The position numbers and the translations under genes were made by a program. Under the pieces are notes generated by a model that worked only from the letters and a program-made list of their open reading frames with translations, did no database searches and had not been told where the DNA came from. A DNA stretch of 32,109 nt from an uncultured Bacilli bacterium (GTDB lineage: Bacteria > Bacillota_I > Bacilli_A > RF39 > UBA660): NCBI GenBank assembly GCA_944359085.1, contig CALVSQ010000015.1, positions 1 to 32,109 on the forward strand. Reading direction: 5' to 3'. This document shows, in pieces, positions 4,360-32,109 of the stretch. The stretch's first letter is position 1. The number at the start of each line of letters is the position of its first letter.

Positions 4360-4461
4360 ATACTCACCTATATTTATTATATATGATTTTTTAATAATTA
4401 TCAATATGTATATTTATAAAATATAGGTGTTTAATTCACACCCTTTTGTCATTATTGAATA

Positions 4462-4470
4462 TGCTATATT
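4462..4470 (+). promoter_or_regulatory. extended -10 candidate for the CotZ-like gene
   Basis: TGCTATATT is an extended -10 (TGn plus TATATT). No good -35 is seen at 17 bp. The start of transcription would fall about 16 bases before the ATG. A mother-cell sigma factor reading the same AT-rich stretch cannot be excluded: AATATGCT partly fits a SigE-type -10. Confidence 0.35.
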
Positions 4471-4492
4471 AGAAAATGAAAGGGTGGATTTT

Positions 4493-4939
4493 ATGTGTAA
4501 TAATGAAAATGAATCTTGCAAATGCATAGCTGAAATATTAACTGTAATATGTATTCTACAACAAAACGCAAATTGTTGTGATTCATGTTTAGATACATGT
4601 GATCGTGGATTTTTAGGCTGTGGCACTACTACTTATACTTGCAATACAAGACCTATAATGTTATATACATGCTGTGGTAATGGGACACCATGGAGTATGC
4701 CAACAACTAAAGATACAACTGACTGTACTGATACTCCAACACCATCAAATTGTTCAAACGTATTCAGAATTGAAAAAATCGATGGATGTTGCGCAACTTT
4801 TAGAGTTCTAGCACCAAATACTGATTCTCTAACACAAGTAGCTATTCCATATGTATCAACTAATTCTTTCTTTACTATGAATTTAAATTGTGTTTGTAGT
4901 TTAAGATGCTTACAAGATACATACGTTGAATGTTTATAA
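4493..4939 (+). CDS. cysteine-rich CotY/CotZ-like spore coat protein
   Basis: A 148-residue protein with about 20 cysteines (13-14 percent). The C-terminal half has FRIEKIDGCCATFRVLAP and, near the end, NLNCVCSLRCL. These match in order and spacing the conserved end of Bacillus CotY/CotZ (an FRVEKL-CDCCA-type motif, then a D/NLGCFCAIQCL-type motif). CotY and CotZ form the disulfide-linked crust lattice of the spore coat. The N-terminal half is more diverged, with a CNNENESCKC opening similar in style to CotZ. The start at 4493 is chosen because AAAGGGTGG precedes it at 6 bases; the upstream ATG at 4427 lacks a site. It is a single-gene unit flanked by minus-strand genes. The family is recognised from remembered motifs, not a search. 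Confidence 0.78.
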   Translation: MCNNENESCKCIAEILTVICILQQNANCCDSCLDTCDRGFLGCGTTTYTCNTRPIMLYTCCGNGTPWSMPTTKDTTDCTDTPTPSNCSNVFRIEKIDGCCATFRVLAPNTDSLTQVAIPYVSTNSFFTMNLNCVCSLRCLQDTYVECL

Positions 4940-17212: not shown

Positions 17213-17238
17213 AAAAAAAAAAAGCTTATACTAAAGCT
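17213..17238 (-). terminator. terminator of cold-shock gene 1
   Basis: On minus AGCTT-TAGTAT-AAGCT forms a short stem followed by a run of T residues (about 11). It overlaps the last codons and stop (17226-17228) of the gene. Confidence 0.7.
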
Positions 17239-17438
17239 GTTTTTATTTCAACTACATTTTTTGCTTGTAAGCCTTTATCTGTTTGAACTAATTCAAATTC
17301 AACATATTGGCCTTCAACTAAAGTTTTATATCCTGGTGATAAAATTGAAGAATAATGTACGAATATATCTTCATTTTCTTTATATTCAATAAATCCAAAC
17401 CCTTTTTCATTATTGAACCATTTTACTTTCCCCTTCAT
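17226..17438 (-). CDS. cold-shock domain protein 1
   Basis: A 70-residue CspA/CspB-type single-strand nucleic-acid chaperone. RNP1 (KGFGFIEY) and RNP2 (DIFVHYS) are intact, and WFNNEKGFGFI and a lysine-rich surface are as expected. It keeps mRNA unstructured; in Bacillus relatives such proteins also act as general RNA chaperones. GGGAG is the ribosome binding site. It has its own promoter (TTGCAT, 17 bp, TATAAT) 40-70 bases upstream. Three Spo0A-box-like heptamers lie immediately above the -35, which suggests control by a response regulator rather than temperature alone. Confidence 0.95.
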   Translation of the reverse strand: MKGKVKWFNNEKGFGFIEYKENEDIFVHYSSILSPGYKTLVEGQYVEFELVQTDKGLQAKNVVEIKTALV

Positions 17439-17476
17439 AATTTAAATCTCCCTTCTAGTAATTCCCTTACAATTTA

Positions 17477-17505
17477 ATTATAAAATAGTTATATATCAAA
17501 TGCAA
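17477..17505 (-). promoter_or_regulatory. sigma-A-type promoter of cold-shock gene 1
   Basis: On minus TTGCAT (17500-17505), exact 17-bp spacer, TATAAT (17477-17482). Predicted start near 17470, giving a leader of about 32 bases. Confidence 0.75.
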
Positions 17506-17514
17506 GAAAATTGA

Positions 17515-17541
17515 AACGACACTTTTCGACAAATTTCGACA
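17515..17541 (-). promoter_or_regulatory. triple Spo0A-box-like operator
   Basis: On minus TGTCGAA-ATT-TGTCGAA-AAG-TGTCGTT: two perfect 0A boxes (TGNCGAA) and one two-mismatch copy, each in the same orientation and exactly 10 bp apart. The array lies about 45-71 bases upstream of the predicted start, just above the -35. The 7+3 spacing is that of the tandem 0A boxes of the Bacillus abrB operator. Confidence 0.6.
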
Positions 17542-17550
17542 TTTAATAAA

Positions 17551-17575
17551 ATTAAAACATACTTTAAGTATGTTT
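17551..17575 (-). terminator. terminator of cold-shock gene 2
   Basis: AAACATACTT and AAGTATGTTT form a 10-bp stem with a one-base centre, then TTTTAATTTT on minus. The stop codon at 17574-17576 is in the 5' arm. Confidence 0.7.
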
Positions 17576-17789
17576 AATTCATAACGCATCTTTTTATAAC
17601 TGACACATTTTTAGCTTGATAACCTTTATCAGTTTCTACTATTTCATAACTTACTATATCGCCTTCATTTAATGTTTTATGACCTTTTTCAATTATAGAT
17701 GAATAATGAACAAATATATCTATTCCTTCTTTATATTCAATAAATCCAAACCCTTTTTCGTCATTAAACCATTTCACTTTTCCTTGCAT
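17574..17789 (-). CDS. cold-shock domain protein 2
   Basis: A 71-residue paralogue of the neighbouring cold-shock protein: the same KVKWFN(D/N)[11 protein letters not shown] start, RNP1 KGFGFIEY and RNP2 DIFVHYS, with a different tail ending IKRCVMN. The start at 17789 is used because GGGAG precedes MQGKVKWFN; the longer frame to 17825 adds a non-homologous extension. It is separated from copy 1 by a terminator and the Spo0A-box-like array, so the two are separately controlled. No good promoter was found upstream. Confidence 0.94.
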
Positions 17790-18006: not shown

Positions 18007-18615
18007 ATGAAAAAAATAATAATGAATTATACAATGAATTTAATAAAAAATAATGGAATTTATGATGATGAAAAACTTGCTGTCATTAAATATGGCTTAG
18101 AAGGGTTATATTTAACAATATCAAAATTAATTATTATTTTGTTTCTAGCATGTTTATTAAACATTTTAAAGGAAGTAATTATATTTTTATTAATATATAA
18201 TGTAATTAGAACTACATCATTTGGTTTGCACGCAACTAAAAGTTGGATATGTTTATTATCATCAACTATAATATTCATTGGTTTTCCTATTATTTATAAA
18301 TATTTATATTTTGATAATTACCTTAAAGTAATTTTAGGTCTTATACTAATATTATTTATATATAAAAATGCACCTGCTGATACCCATAAAAGACCTATCG
18401 TAAATCAAAAAAGAAGAATGTTCTTTAAATATAGTTCTACTTTTATAGCAATAATATTTGTATTTTGTTCAATTTTAATTAATGATAATTTTATAAGTAA
18501 TTGTTTTATATTTTCATTATTTGTACAATCATTTATGATAGCACCTTCTGTATATAAGTTATTTAATTTACCTTATAACAACTATTTAACTTATTTAGCA
18601 AATAACAATATTTAA
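18007..18615 (+). CDS. agrB: accessory gene regulator protein B (AIP-processing protease)
   Basis: AgrB is a membrane cysteine endopeptidase that cuts the C-terminal tail of AgrD and forms the thiolactone ring. At 202 residues it has typical length, with about six hydrophobic segments. The catalytic pair is H75 and C82 in GLHATKSWIC, with the exact 7-residue spacing of Staphylococcus H77/C84. The conserved segment APADTHKRPI is present near residue 125. The ATG has GAGGT upstream. agrD follows 48 bases later on the same strand, while the sensor and regulator genes face it. Confidence 0.95.
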   Translation: MKKIIMNYTMNLIKNNGIYDDEKLAVIKYGLEGLYLTISKLIIILFLACLLNILKEVIIFLLIYNVIRTTSFGLHATKSWICLLSSTIIFIGFPIIYKYLYFDNYLKVILGLILILFIYKNAPADTHKRPIVNQKRRMFFKYSSTFIAIIFVFCSILINDNFISNCFIFSLFVQSFMIAPSVYKLFNLPYNNYLTYLANNNI

Positions 18616-18663
18616 ATATACATAGTATATTTGAATATAAAGAATAAAAAGGAGGGAAGTAGT

Positions 18664-18783
18664 ATGGCTTTTGTAGCATCTTTATTAGCAACAGTTGGTT
18701 CATTCTTAGCAACAATGGGAAGTCAAGCATGTTATTTAGTATTTATTGATGAACCTGAATGTCCAAAAAGTTTAGTTAAATAA
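18664..18783 (+). CDS. agrD: AgrD-type cyclic peptide pheromone precursor
   Basis: A 39-residue reading frame with a strong GGAGGG site 7 bases before the ATG, directly after agrB. Residues 1-19 form the hydrophobic amphipathic leader (AFVASLLATVGSFLATMG). The core and tail read SQACYLVFIDEPECPKSL; the acidic tail DEPExPKxL is the conserved AgrB recognition segment (DEVEVPKEL in Staphylococcus, YEPKSP in Listeria). The ring cysteine is C23. If cutting occurs just before DEPE the ring is CYLVFI (six residues); a conventional five-residue ring would be CYLVF. It was too short for ordinary gene finding but is well supported by context. Confidence 0.93.
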   Translation: MAFVASLLATVGSFLATMGSQACYLVFIDEPECPKSLVK

Positions 18784-18811
18784 AAATGTAGATTATAATA
18801 TCTACATTTTT
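18782..18811 (+). terminator. bidirectional terminator between agrD and agrC
   Basis: AAAAATGTAGAT and ATCTACATTTTT form a perfect 12-bp stem with a 6-base loop. The agrD stop (18781-18783) and agrC stop (18802-18804) both lie in or at the hairpin. Confidence 0.88.
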
Positions 18812-20115
18812 ATTTTGATCACTTGAGTAAAAATATTATTTACTATTTTTACTTCGTTAATTATATTATCATTTTCATCAACAATCTTTTTTAATAAGCT
18901 CAAACCATATCCATGACCTTTTTGTTTACTAGTATATCCTTTATCATAAATTTTGCTTAAATCTATATCATCTTTAATTCTATTAGACACCTCTATAATA
19001 AACATATCATCAACATACATTGAAATAATTATCTCACGATCTTTTTTATTAAATTTTGCAGTTTCTTCTATTGCATTATCTATTATTATTCCGACAATCC
19101 TACAAATATCATAATTCATTTTTGATGAAATGCGCGATGAATCAATTTTTCTTACTTTACTATTTATATCTAAATTTACTTCAATATTTTTTTCTTGCAT
19201 TAACAACATTTTTTGATATATTAATCCTTGTAGCCCACCTGAAGGAATTCTTTTAGCTTTATTATAAATAATTTCATTATCTTCTCGCTTTTCTTTTAGT
19301 ATTTCATTTATATATTCAGATATTTTTGAATCTTTCTTATCTATCAACGTCTTTATCACTAACAATTGATTTTTATTTTCATGATTACTTACTCTTTGAT
19401 AATCTAGCATTTTTTCATATTCATTTAAATTATTAATTAAATTAGTGTTTTCAACTTTAATATTAATATTTTCTAAATTTTTATTTATTGCATAATATAA
19501 AATATAGCAATAAATTATTATAAAAAATGAACTTAAAATTATTAATATTTTATAATTAACATTCAAATAATTTACGATTAAAAAAATATTGAGTGTTACA
19601 ACAAGAAAAAACATCAAACTATATTTTATATATTCTTTAACTTGATTTAAAATACAGAAAATCTTTTCAACAAAAATTTTAAAAAATGGTATTTTTATTA
19701 TCAAGATAGCTATTAAAGAAATTATAATATTAGGAAATAAATAGCCTCTTAAATTTTCAATAACATAAGACGCATTTTTGTTAAAAATGAGAAAAACTAT
19801 TAATGTAAAAATGAGTTCAGAAAAAAACATAATAAGCTGTTCGCAAATTACAATTATTGAAATTTGTTTTAATTCTTCTTTATAAATTATTTGATTAACC
19901 GCTATTAATATTATAGTATTTACTAAGAATACAATAAAATAATTTAAATAATAATAATTAATAACATATATAAACGTTACTAAAAAAGCAAATAATAAAG
20001 ATTTTCTCAAAATATTATTATTATATTTACGAACTAAATTATTAATAATATAAAATGCAGACATAACATTAACAAAACAAGGTAAATAATTACGAAAAAA
20101 ATAATATATTAACAT
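18802..20115 (-). CDS. agrC: AgrC-type sensor histidine kinase
   Basis: A 437-residue receptor for the cyclic peptide. Residues 1-205 form about six membrane spans. The linker then leads to the dimerisation helix with phospho-acceptor H245 in SNHENKNQLLVIK, the form typical of the AgrC/ComD (HPK10) class. The GHKL ATPase domain has the N box DICRIVGIIIDNAIEE (N347) and the G box KGHGYGLSLLKK (400-410). It is coupled to agrA: its ATG overlaps the agrA stop by 7 bases. The order agrA-agrC, opposite to Staphylococcus agrC-agrA, and the convergent placement to agrBD are notable. Confidence 0.94.
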   Translation of the reverse strand: MLIYYFFRNYLPCFVNVMSAFYIINNLVRKYNNNILRKSLLFAFLVTFIYVINYYYLNYFIVFLVNTIILIAVNQIIYKEELKQISIIVICEQLIMFFSELIFTLIVFLIFNKNASYVIENLRGYLFPNIIISLIAILIIKIPFFKIFVEKIFCILNQVKEYIKYSLMFFLVVTLNIFLIVNYLNVNYKILIILSSFFIIIYCYILYYAINKNLENINIKVENTNLINNLNEYEKMLDYQRVSNHENKNQLLVIKTLIDKKDSKISEYINEILKEKREDNEIIYNKAKRIPSGGLQGLIYQKMLLMQEKNIEVNLDINSKVRKIDSSRISSKMNYDICRIVGIIIDNAIEETAKFNKKDREIIISMYVDDMFIIEVSNRIKDDIDLSKIYDKGYTSKQKGHGYGLSLLKKIVDENDNIINEVKIVNNIFTQVIKIKM

Positions 20116-20819
20116 AATTGACCTACTTCTTTTTTATAATTATCAGAAACTAAATCTACCATTTCACCATTGTCAAATAAAATTTGCTTTTTCTTTTTAT
20201 CAATTTTAATAATTCTATCTTCATTAACCAAGCAAGCTCTATGACTCTGTACTAATGATCCCATACTTAATTCCTTTATTTCAGTCAAAGATTTACCAAT
20301 TTTATATGTTCTACTATCTGTTTTAATTAAACATTTTCTTTCTACATTATCGTGAGTAACATACAAAATATCTTTTACTGGGATTATATATACAGCGTTG
20401 TTATCAATAAACTTAATTGCTTGTTTCTTTCCAATATAAGCTAAAGATTTTATAATAGCATCTCTTACTCTTTTATTAAAATCGTCAAATTTACAAATAA
20501 AAGTTAAAACCATCAATTGATCACGAACAATATTAGAAGCTAGTTCATCATGTGCAGTTATAAATATTATAATACTATCTAAATCATTTTTTCTAATCAT
20601 TCTTGCTATATCAATACCAGATTCTGATTTTGTTTCAATATCTAATAAATATACTCTATTTACCATTGATTCATTCATAAGTTTCTTAAATTCACTATTA
20701 TAATCATTAAAAATATGTGTTTTATATTCTAATTTATTATTAATCATAACCTTACTTATAATATCCTTAATATTATCAGTTACTTCTTTAAAATCATCAA
20801 CTATTACAAAATTAATCAT
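20109..20819 (-). CDS. agrA: AgrA-type LytTR response regulator
   Basis: A 236-residue regulator. The receiver domain (1-120) has acidic pocket D8/D9, phosphorylated D60 in YLLDIE, T88 in FITAHDE and K110. The LytTR DNA-binding domain (about 135-235) includes IIPVKDILYV, the typical RTYKIGKSLTEIKE, SHRACLVNEDRI and a C-terminal cysteine. It should activate genes with paired 9-bp direct repeats in response to the peptide. GGAGG precedes the ATG. A promoter with extended -10 (TGATATAAT) is 32 bases upstream, so agrA-agrC are likely expressed independently of agrBD. Confidence 0.94.
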   Translation of the reverse strand: MINFVIVDDFKEVTDNIKDIISKVMINNKLEYKTHIFNDYNSEFKKLMNESMVNRVYLLDIETKSESGIDIARMIRKNDLDSIIIFITAHDELASNIVRDQLMVLTFICKFDDFNKRVRDAIIKSLAYIGKKQAIKFIDNNAVYIIPVKDILYVTHDNVERKCLIKTDSRTYKIGKSLTEIKELSMGSLVQSHRACLVNEDRIIKIDKKKKQILFDNGEMVDLVSDNYKKEVGQLC

Positions 20820-30872: not shown

Positions 30873-31126
30873 AAACTTTCCTCATTTAACAAACCAACAT
30901 ACTCTAAAACTAATTTTAATATGTTTTGATCTTTTACTTTTTGAACACTTTTTTGATTATTAAAATCAACTTCTTCAAATACAACTAATTCTTCCATAAC
31001 ATTTTCTTCATCATCAGTTAATCGTAAAGAAACATAATATGTTTTCCCTTTATATATTGCTTGCTTAACAACAACATATTTTTTTCCATCTGCAAGTTCC
31101 ATGACTTGATTAATTCTATTTATCAT
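30857..31126 (-). CDS. small DUF1292-like protein
   Basis: An 89-residue acidic protein. Residues 8-70 read as a beta-rich domain of the DUF1292 type: ELADGKKYVVVKQAIYKGKTYYVSLRL, then EELVVFEEVD, then ILKLVLEYVG. DUF1292 proteins are small cytosolic proteins of unknown function in Firmicutes, usually next to yqgF or mltG; that context is absent here. Its ATG shares one base with the stop of the surface protein gene upstream (TAATG), so the two are translationally coupled. GGAGG lies upstream. The family call rests on pattern only. Confidence 0.6.
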   Translation of the reverse strand: MINRINQVMELADGKKYVVVKQAIYKGKTYYVSLRLTDDEENVMEELVVFEEVDFNNQKSVQKVKDQNILKLVLEYVGLLNEESLKSVN

Positions 31127-32109
31127 TAACGAGTCATACCTCCTTCTTTAGATAAACCTAATTCTTCTAAAATTTTATCATAATCATCGTTTTTTTCTTC
31201 ATTCATATTATCTTGTGGAGGATTAGTTTCTGATGGATCAACAGTTACAATAATATTTCCATTTTCATCAACTTGTGCACCAGTAATAGCATCTGAATTA
31301 GGATAATCATAATCTCCAGAAACAACATCAGAATTTTCTCCATTACTATTATCAACAATCACAGGACCTGATGGGGTATCAACAACAAATGAATCGCCAG
31401 GTTTTACAATTACTTCTACATCTTCATCTGGTTCAGGTGTTGGTTCAGGTGTTGGATCAGGTGTTGGTTCAGGTGTTGGATCAGGTGTTGGTTCAGGTGT
31501 TGGATCAGGTGTTGGTTCAGGTGTTGGCTCTGGTGTTGGCTCTGGTGTTGGTTCAGGTGTTGGTTCAGGTGTTGGCTCTGGTGTTGGTTCAGGCATTGGT
31601 TCAGGTGTTGGTTCTGTTTGATCTTGAGTTACATCATCTCCATTTGATATTCCTGATTCAATTCCTGCTAAAGCAGAATCTTTAGCTCCTTCATAGAAAA
31701 TATTAGAATCAAAATCAAAAGCAAAATCATCTTCAGGTAATTCAGGTAATTCTTCTGTTATAGAAGTATTTAACTCTTTATTTGTATCAGGTTTTTCTAT
31801 TTTACTACATGATGATAAACTAGCTACAATAAAGGCAATTGCACAAGCTAAAGCAATAATTTTTTTCTTATGTTTCTTTATAAAATCTAAAACTTTATCT
31901 TTTGCTTTTTTCCAACCAACAATTGCTATTGGCTGATCATCATCTTTATCTTTTTCATCTTCAGGTGTTGTAATTGGTACTGGAACAACTCCTTCATCAT
32001 CCTTGTCTTTTTCATCTTCAGGTGTTGCAATCGGTACTGGAACAACTCCTTCATCATCCTTGTCTTTTTCATCTTCAGGTGTTGCAATCGGTACTGGAAC
32101 AACTCCTTC
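31126..32109 (-). CDS. repeat-rich membrane-anchored surface protein, 5' end outside the window
   Basis: The frame is open from the window end to the stop, giving at least 327 residues. It starts with three 19-residue repeats of EGVVPVPIATPEDEKDKDD. A basic hydrophobic segment follows (KKKIIALACAIAFIVASLSSCSK), whose end LSSC fits a lipobox. Then come an acidic stretch (ELPELPEDDFAFDFDSN), about 14 PTPEP/PTPDP units and an acidic C-terminal domain without a wall-sorting motif. The layout suggests cytoplasmic repeats, a membrane span and a proline-rich stalk with an outside tip. The ATG at 31596 within the stalk is not a real start. The gene is co-translated with the DUF1292-like gene. The function is unknown. 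Confidence 0.8.
   Translation of the reverse strand, partial: EGVVPVPIATPEDEKDKDDEGVVPVPIATPEDEKDKDDEGVVPVPITTPEDEKDKDDDQPIAIVGWKKAKDKVLDFIKKHKKKIIALACAIAFIVASLSSCSKIEKPDTNKELNTSITEELPELPEDDFAFDFDSNIFYEGAKDSALAGIESGISNGDDVTQDQTEPTPEPMPEPTPEPTPEPTPEPTPEPTPEPTPEPTPDPTPEPTPDPTPEPTPDPTPEPTPEPDEDVEVIVKPGDSFVVDTPSGPVIVDNSNGENSDVVSGDYDYPNSDAITGAQVDENGNIIVTVDPSETNPPQDNMNEEKNDDYDKILEELGLSKEGGMTR
31429..31616 (-). repeat. 12-bp coding repeat encoding PTPEP/PTPDP stalk
   Basis: About 15 tandem 12-bp units (GGTTCAGGTGTT on plus, with GGATCAGGTGTT and GGCTCTGGTGTT variants). The period is a multiple of three, so changes in copy number alter stalk length but keep the frame. Confidence 0.92.
31939..32109 (-). 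repeat. 57-bp tandem coding repeat, three copies to window end
   Basis: Three 57-bp units encode a 19-residue acidic repeat. The two copies nearest the window end are identical at every base; the third has four substitutions. The array may continue beyond the window. Confidence 0.95.

Follow-up and report, generated by a model that had tools for sequence, protein, structure and literature searches.

The promoter of csp1, a cold-shock gene of an uncultured gut bacterium of the Bacilli, carries a tandem array of 0A-box heptamers to which Spo0A is very likely to bind, and which we interpret, with moderate confidence, as an operator through which phosphorylated Spo0A (Spo0A∼P) would activate csp1. 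Since sites of the Spo0A type recur at csp1 across a large group of relatives, csp1 is probably controlled by the sporulation decision, and a tie of this gene to developmental commitment is plausible.

The Box Array and the csp1 Promoter

The array is located in the window, by which the whole stretch of 32,109 nucleotides analysed here is meant, and reads on the minus strand TGTCGAA (17541-17535)-ATT-TGTCGAA (17531-17525)-AAG-TGTCGTT (17521-17515). It contains two perfect copies of the 0A-box core (TGTCGAA, fitting TGNCGAA) and one TGTCGTT, and all three heptamers share one orientation and follow each other with the 10-bp period of tandem boxes. The sequence-only reading, which had described a triple array of this orientation and period at 17515-17541 above a TTGCAT-17-TATAAT promoter, was exact with regard to the array, which lies on the minus strand, and the promoter is likewise present, although its -35 element matches the consensus at only three of six positions. 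Box 3 is separated from this TTGCAT by 9 bp (17514-17506), a spacer of 17 bp leads to TATAAT, and the ATG of csp1 is placed at 17438 on the minus strand. In the order of transcription the features are:

17574-17789, minus strand: csp2, paralogous cold-shock gene without a 0A box (PF00313, 87.9 bits)
17555-17575, minus strand: A+T-rich inverted repeat followed by T-rich DNA, seen in the sequence just above the boxes; possible csp2 terminator
17535-17541, minus strand: box 1, distal 0A box, TGTCGAA (sequence and shuffles; retained in part of the genus)
17525-17531, minus strand: box 2, middle 0A box, TGTCGAA, the invariant one (18/18 congeners; counterpart in 72/114 promoters order-wide)
17515-17521, minus strand: box 3, proximal degenerate 0A box, TGTCGTT (T-G-n-n-G skeleton kept order-wide)
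17500-17505, minus strand: -35 element TTGCAT (sequence; TTG kept in 17/18 congeners)
17477-17482, minus strand: -10 element TATAAT (sequence; invariant among genus orthologues)
17448-17456, minus strand: ribosome-binding site AGAAGGGAG (sequence; conserved in the genus)
17226-17438, minus strand: csp1, 70-aa cold-shock protein with CSD domain (PF00313, 91.4 bits)

The inverted repeat at 17555-17575 fell short of the G+C content demanded by the terminator scan. The exact tandem TGTCGAA-N3-TGTCGAA occurs once in the window, as does the extended triple, and neither appeared in 100 dinucleotide-preserving shuffles of the window. Within the whole assembly, a metagenome bin of 1.13 Mb that is 68% complete, there are only two exact tandems, namely the csp1 array and one before a sensor kinase gene. 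Near-matches with two mismatches elsewhere in this genome were dropped, because no coherent target was found among them.

The csp pair is adjoined by a complete agr-type quorum-sensing locus (18007-20819) with AgrB (128 bits), an AgrC-like kinase and an AgrA-like LytTR regulator, as well as an AgrD-like ORF of 50 amino acids at 18631-18783, the start of which is uncertain and which ends ACYLVFIDEPECPKSLVK. Elsewhere in the window, an ORF at 31126-31596 contains a long repeat of proline, threonine and glutamate (PTPEPTPEP) and may encode a surface spacer.

Conservation of the Boxes

The middle box begins with TGTCGA in all 18 congeners (TGTCGAA, with TGTCGAT in one), and its distance from the -10 element, itself invariant, is constant. 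The outer boxes vary in the genus, box 1 being perfect in some species and box 3 in others, so that the conserved unit, as judged by sequence comparison, is a tandem pair and not a triple. Across the order, TGTCG is found at the same place and in the same orientation in 72 of 114 non-redundant csp promoters (region tested: 60-110 bp above the csp start codon), compared with a mean of 4.6 for letter permutations of the motif, while the reversed TGTCG was found in 0 of these 114 promoters within the same region. Aligning the promoters on TGTCG brings out a second box, degenerate in sequence, at a downstream distance of exactly 10 bp (T in 93% at +10, G in 69% at +11, C in 30% at +13 over a background of 8%, and G in 66% at +14), below which TTGAA appears as the -35 element. 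As to whether the three heptamers and their spacing are kept in relatives, on which the sequence-only reading had staked its proposal, the middle box and the 10-bp pair are indeed kept, but the outer heptamers come and go.

Spo0A contacts the 0A box at G2, C4 and G5 (PMC3485338). The middle box is invariant at these three positions in the 18 congeners, and the degenerate second box seen order-wide keeps G2 and G5 and, partly, C4, i.e. the bases contacted by Spo0A. In some distant genera it is the proximal csp box that is perfect, which fits the expectation that one of the two halves of a tandem site must be strong. When distant csp genes were sampled with one per genus, TGTCG was present in only 14 of 40 within the region tested. 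In a second family of the class (L264, L266, L269, and L271), csp genes likewise have TGTCGAA at about -87, so that the link between csp and the box may be older than the order. At the adjacent paralogue csp2, a TGTCG box was found in 0 of 11 genus loci.

Spo0A in the Genome and Its Relatives

A Spo0A homologue, which the sequence-only reading had called for, is present in the genome. The protein scores 260.8 bits against the NCBI equivalog model TIGR02875 (cut-off 200) and is encoded full-length at locus L001, with receiver and Spo0A_C (PF08769) domains. Its C-terminal domain can be aligned over the full length with 1lq1 and 1fc3 (E ∼1e-43) and resembles the structure solved on DNA, the recognition segment being nearly unchanged (NTTVSRVERSIRHAVEVSW compared with NTTASRVERAIRHAIEVAW). 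Spo0A_C was found in 18/18 congeners and spoIIGA in 17/18, and Spo0A was found in 183 of the 193 genomes of the order, which is probably RF39. The 10 genomes of the order without a Spo0A match are probably gaps, since several of them keep the boxes and 9 of the 10 have congeners with spo0A, and for this reason they were discarded as a negative control. The seven genomes with the weakest Spo0A_C matches (G018, G025, G041, G062, G066, G107, and G208) are all without a csp match, compared with 15 of the 186 others (Fisher p ∼1e-7, with a threshold for weak matches that was chosen after looking at the data, and with three of the seven genomes sharing one genus). The exact tandem pair was found in none of these seven, a possible case of co-loss.

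Relatives with a name are uncultured Bacilli or Mycoplasmatota found in animal guts, and for RF39 a published survey predicts spore formation with a reduced gene set (PMC10868615). The window itself contains the gene of a CotZ-type spore coat protein (4427-4939, 53 bits), the presence of which in a bin of reduced-genome gut Bacilli is consistent with spore formation.

Other Putative Targets

The exact tandem was found 46 times in the 18 congeners and 120 times in the 193 genomes of the order, compared with 0 for the reversed-pattern control in both sets. When gaps of 0 to 22 bp between TGTCGAA pairs were scanned, 3 bp was far ahead of the rest, followed among the spacings listed by 13 bp (n = 20), which places the box starts two turns apart, and 19 bp (n = 10). 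Pairs of the N19 class, 26 bp apart, often have TAGCTAGTTT directly before the second box (e.g. G033:C46:7754-7786 and G078:C3:58215-58247).

Nearly all exact sites in the genus fall at three places, namely csp1, a membrane sensor kinase gene and the ComK gene, with few others. Autoregulation of spo0A and control of competence are already established as roles of Spo0A (PMC12090719; PMC3485338), and in these genomes the same motif is present at spo0A, at comK and, weakly, at spoIIGA. In nine other genera, spo0A itself is preceded by a tandem, which is always reversed and lies ∼55-150 bp before the estimated start, while the window’s genus has one perfect reversed box ∼90 bp above spo0A. The ComK gene (PF06338, 135 bits) lies between dnaN and recF, with tandem boxes upstream, and its promoter has two or three 0A boxes over the -35 region and an extended -10 element TG-N-TATAAG (L015 1445-1558; also L011, L014, L027, L031, and L068-L073). 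The coverage of the -35 region suggests that competence in this genus is under direct control by Spo0A, which at comK would probably be repressive. The sensor kinase gene adjoins a rodA/ftsW-like gene, and in its promoter (L002 1501-1550) the 0A boxes are tandem and reversed, and TCGACA stands 22 bp from TATAAT; Spo0A may here feed back on its own kinase. At spoIIGA a weak variant of the motif is present, with a box-like element 22 bp from the -10 element. The boxes at spo0A, comK, the kinase gene and spoIIGA are all reversed relative to transcription, whereas those at csp1 are forward.

Proposed Mode of Control and Alternatives

The most economical reading of the csp1 array is that Spo0A∼P would sit on tandem half-sites that lie on the same side of the helix. 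Upon nutrient exhaustion, a Spo0A∼P dimer would occupy the boxes side by side, binding the middle box with high and the proximal box with low affinity, while the distal box could offer a further docking site in the window’s species. Placed at about -61 to -45 from the expected start, Spo0A∼P would help RNA polymerase with sigma-A to use a promoter whose -10 element is perfect but whose -35 element is poor, such that the RNA chaperone Csp1 would rise at entry into stationary phase or sporulation, and csp2 would stay outside Spo0A control. If Spo0A binds, activation of csp1 is the outcome that we consider fairly probable. Sites above the -35 element of a promoter with a normal spacer are in the position typical of activators. 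TTGAA-type -35 elements are common in these A+T-rich genomes (the loci compared are themselves enriched for csp promoters), so that the weak -35 element is no proof of activator dependence.

The tandem 0A boxes of the Bacillus abrB operator have forward orientation and 10-bp spacing, as at csp1, and the core TGTCGAA and the side-by-side arrangement are likewise shared. However, the abrB boxes follow the promoter and work as a roadblock (PMC12090719), whereas the csp1 boxes stand above the -35 element of a cold-shock gene. Another known system is spoIIG of B. subtilis, which is Spo0A-activated and sigma-A-dependent, with 0A boxes above a promoter with a poor or displaced -35 element; the likeness extends to the box-like element 22 bp from TATAAT at the spoIIGA and kinase promoters of the genus. 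The csp1 promoter differs from spoIIG in having forward boxes, a separation of 9 bp and a normal 17-bp spacer, and the spoIIG-type layout, in which a box covers a -35-like element ∼22 bp from the -10 element, was found at the kinase promoter and not at csp1. With forward boxes above a normal 17-bp promoter, the mode of action at csp1 need therefore not be that of spoIIG. In C. difficile, the spo0A and sigH promoters have a consensus 0A box at about -75 from the start codon, which is bound by Spo0A (PMC3485338). A perfect coding-strand box within ∼100 bp of the start codon is common to these promoters and csp1, but csp1 is a cold-shock target and its boxes are tandem.

Alternatively, Spo0A∼P could bind and repress csp1 by blocking the contact of the polymerase alpha-subunit above the -35 element (UP element), and so lower the level of a growth-phase Csp when sporulation begins. 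Csp proteins often belong to the growth phase, the boxes cover the A+T-rich region where a UP element would lie, and they run in the direction of transcription, contrary to those at the other putative targets. The constitutive expression of CspB and CspD in B. subtilis (PMC8307031) was also counted in favor of repression. However, the csp1 boxes are clear of the -35 element, the spacer and the start site, unlike those at comK here or in the abrB operator, and the -35 element is poor, so that repression is considered possible but rather unlikely.

A different regulator could also read tandem TGTCG at a 10-bp period, e.g. the nearby agr-type LytTR response regulator (20109-20819) or one resembling WalR, given that other response regulators bind direct repeats about one turn apart and that the motif was identified by its likeness to the boxes of B. 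subtilis and C. difficile. This is improbable, since tandem sites occur at spo0A (in nine genera), comK and the kinase gene, all far from the agr locus, the conserved letters track the Spo0A contacts, no tandem site was found in the seven genomes whose Spo0A_C matches are weakest, and known LytTR and WalR sites differ in sequence and spacing. A chance or non-functional repeat, for which the recurrence of short motifs in an A+T-rich genome and the variable outer boxes might speak, is contradicted by the conservation of the middle box in 18/18 congeners, by the order-wide bias in position and orientation and by the absence of the array from the shuffles, and has a negligible probability.

Implications for Uncultured Gut Bacilli

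TGTCGAA boxes, tandem operators and regulons that extend beyond sporulation genes are classical for Spo0A, while a literature search outside which most subscription journals lay found no study in which Spo0A directly controls the gene of a cold-shock protein. With unusually broad comparative support, csp1 is probably a new addition to the targets of a known regulator, and one that is widespread among uncultured Bacilli, probably those of the order RF39. Csp proteins are of importance in the same part of the life cycle. Like the csp1 product, CspB, CspC and CspD of B. subtilis are small CSD RNA chaperones; all three are in the RNA-binding proteome of sporulating cells (PMC12456014), and loss of CspB and CspD abolishes competence (PMC8307031), but Spo0A control of csp is described in neither of these two studies.

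For the broader proposal, the balance is even: across a large group of gut Bacilli that are uncultured and have reduced genomes, Spo0A may directly control a small conserved set of genes, among them spo0A, comK and the genes of a sensor kinase and of a cold-shock RNA chaperone, which would place post-transcriptional control, competence and sporulation on one switch. This would be a first sketch, drawn from sequence alone, of what Spo0A regulates in uncultured gut Bacilli with a predicted ability to sporulate on a reduced gene set, and since purified protein and short DNA fragments suffice, the prediction can be checked without cultivation. If it is true, the master regulator of sporulation would directly set the level of a general RNA chaperone, and control at the RNA level during sporulation would gain an entry point in transcription.
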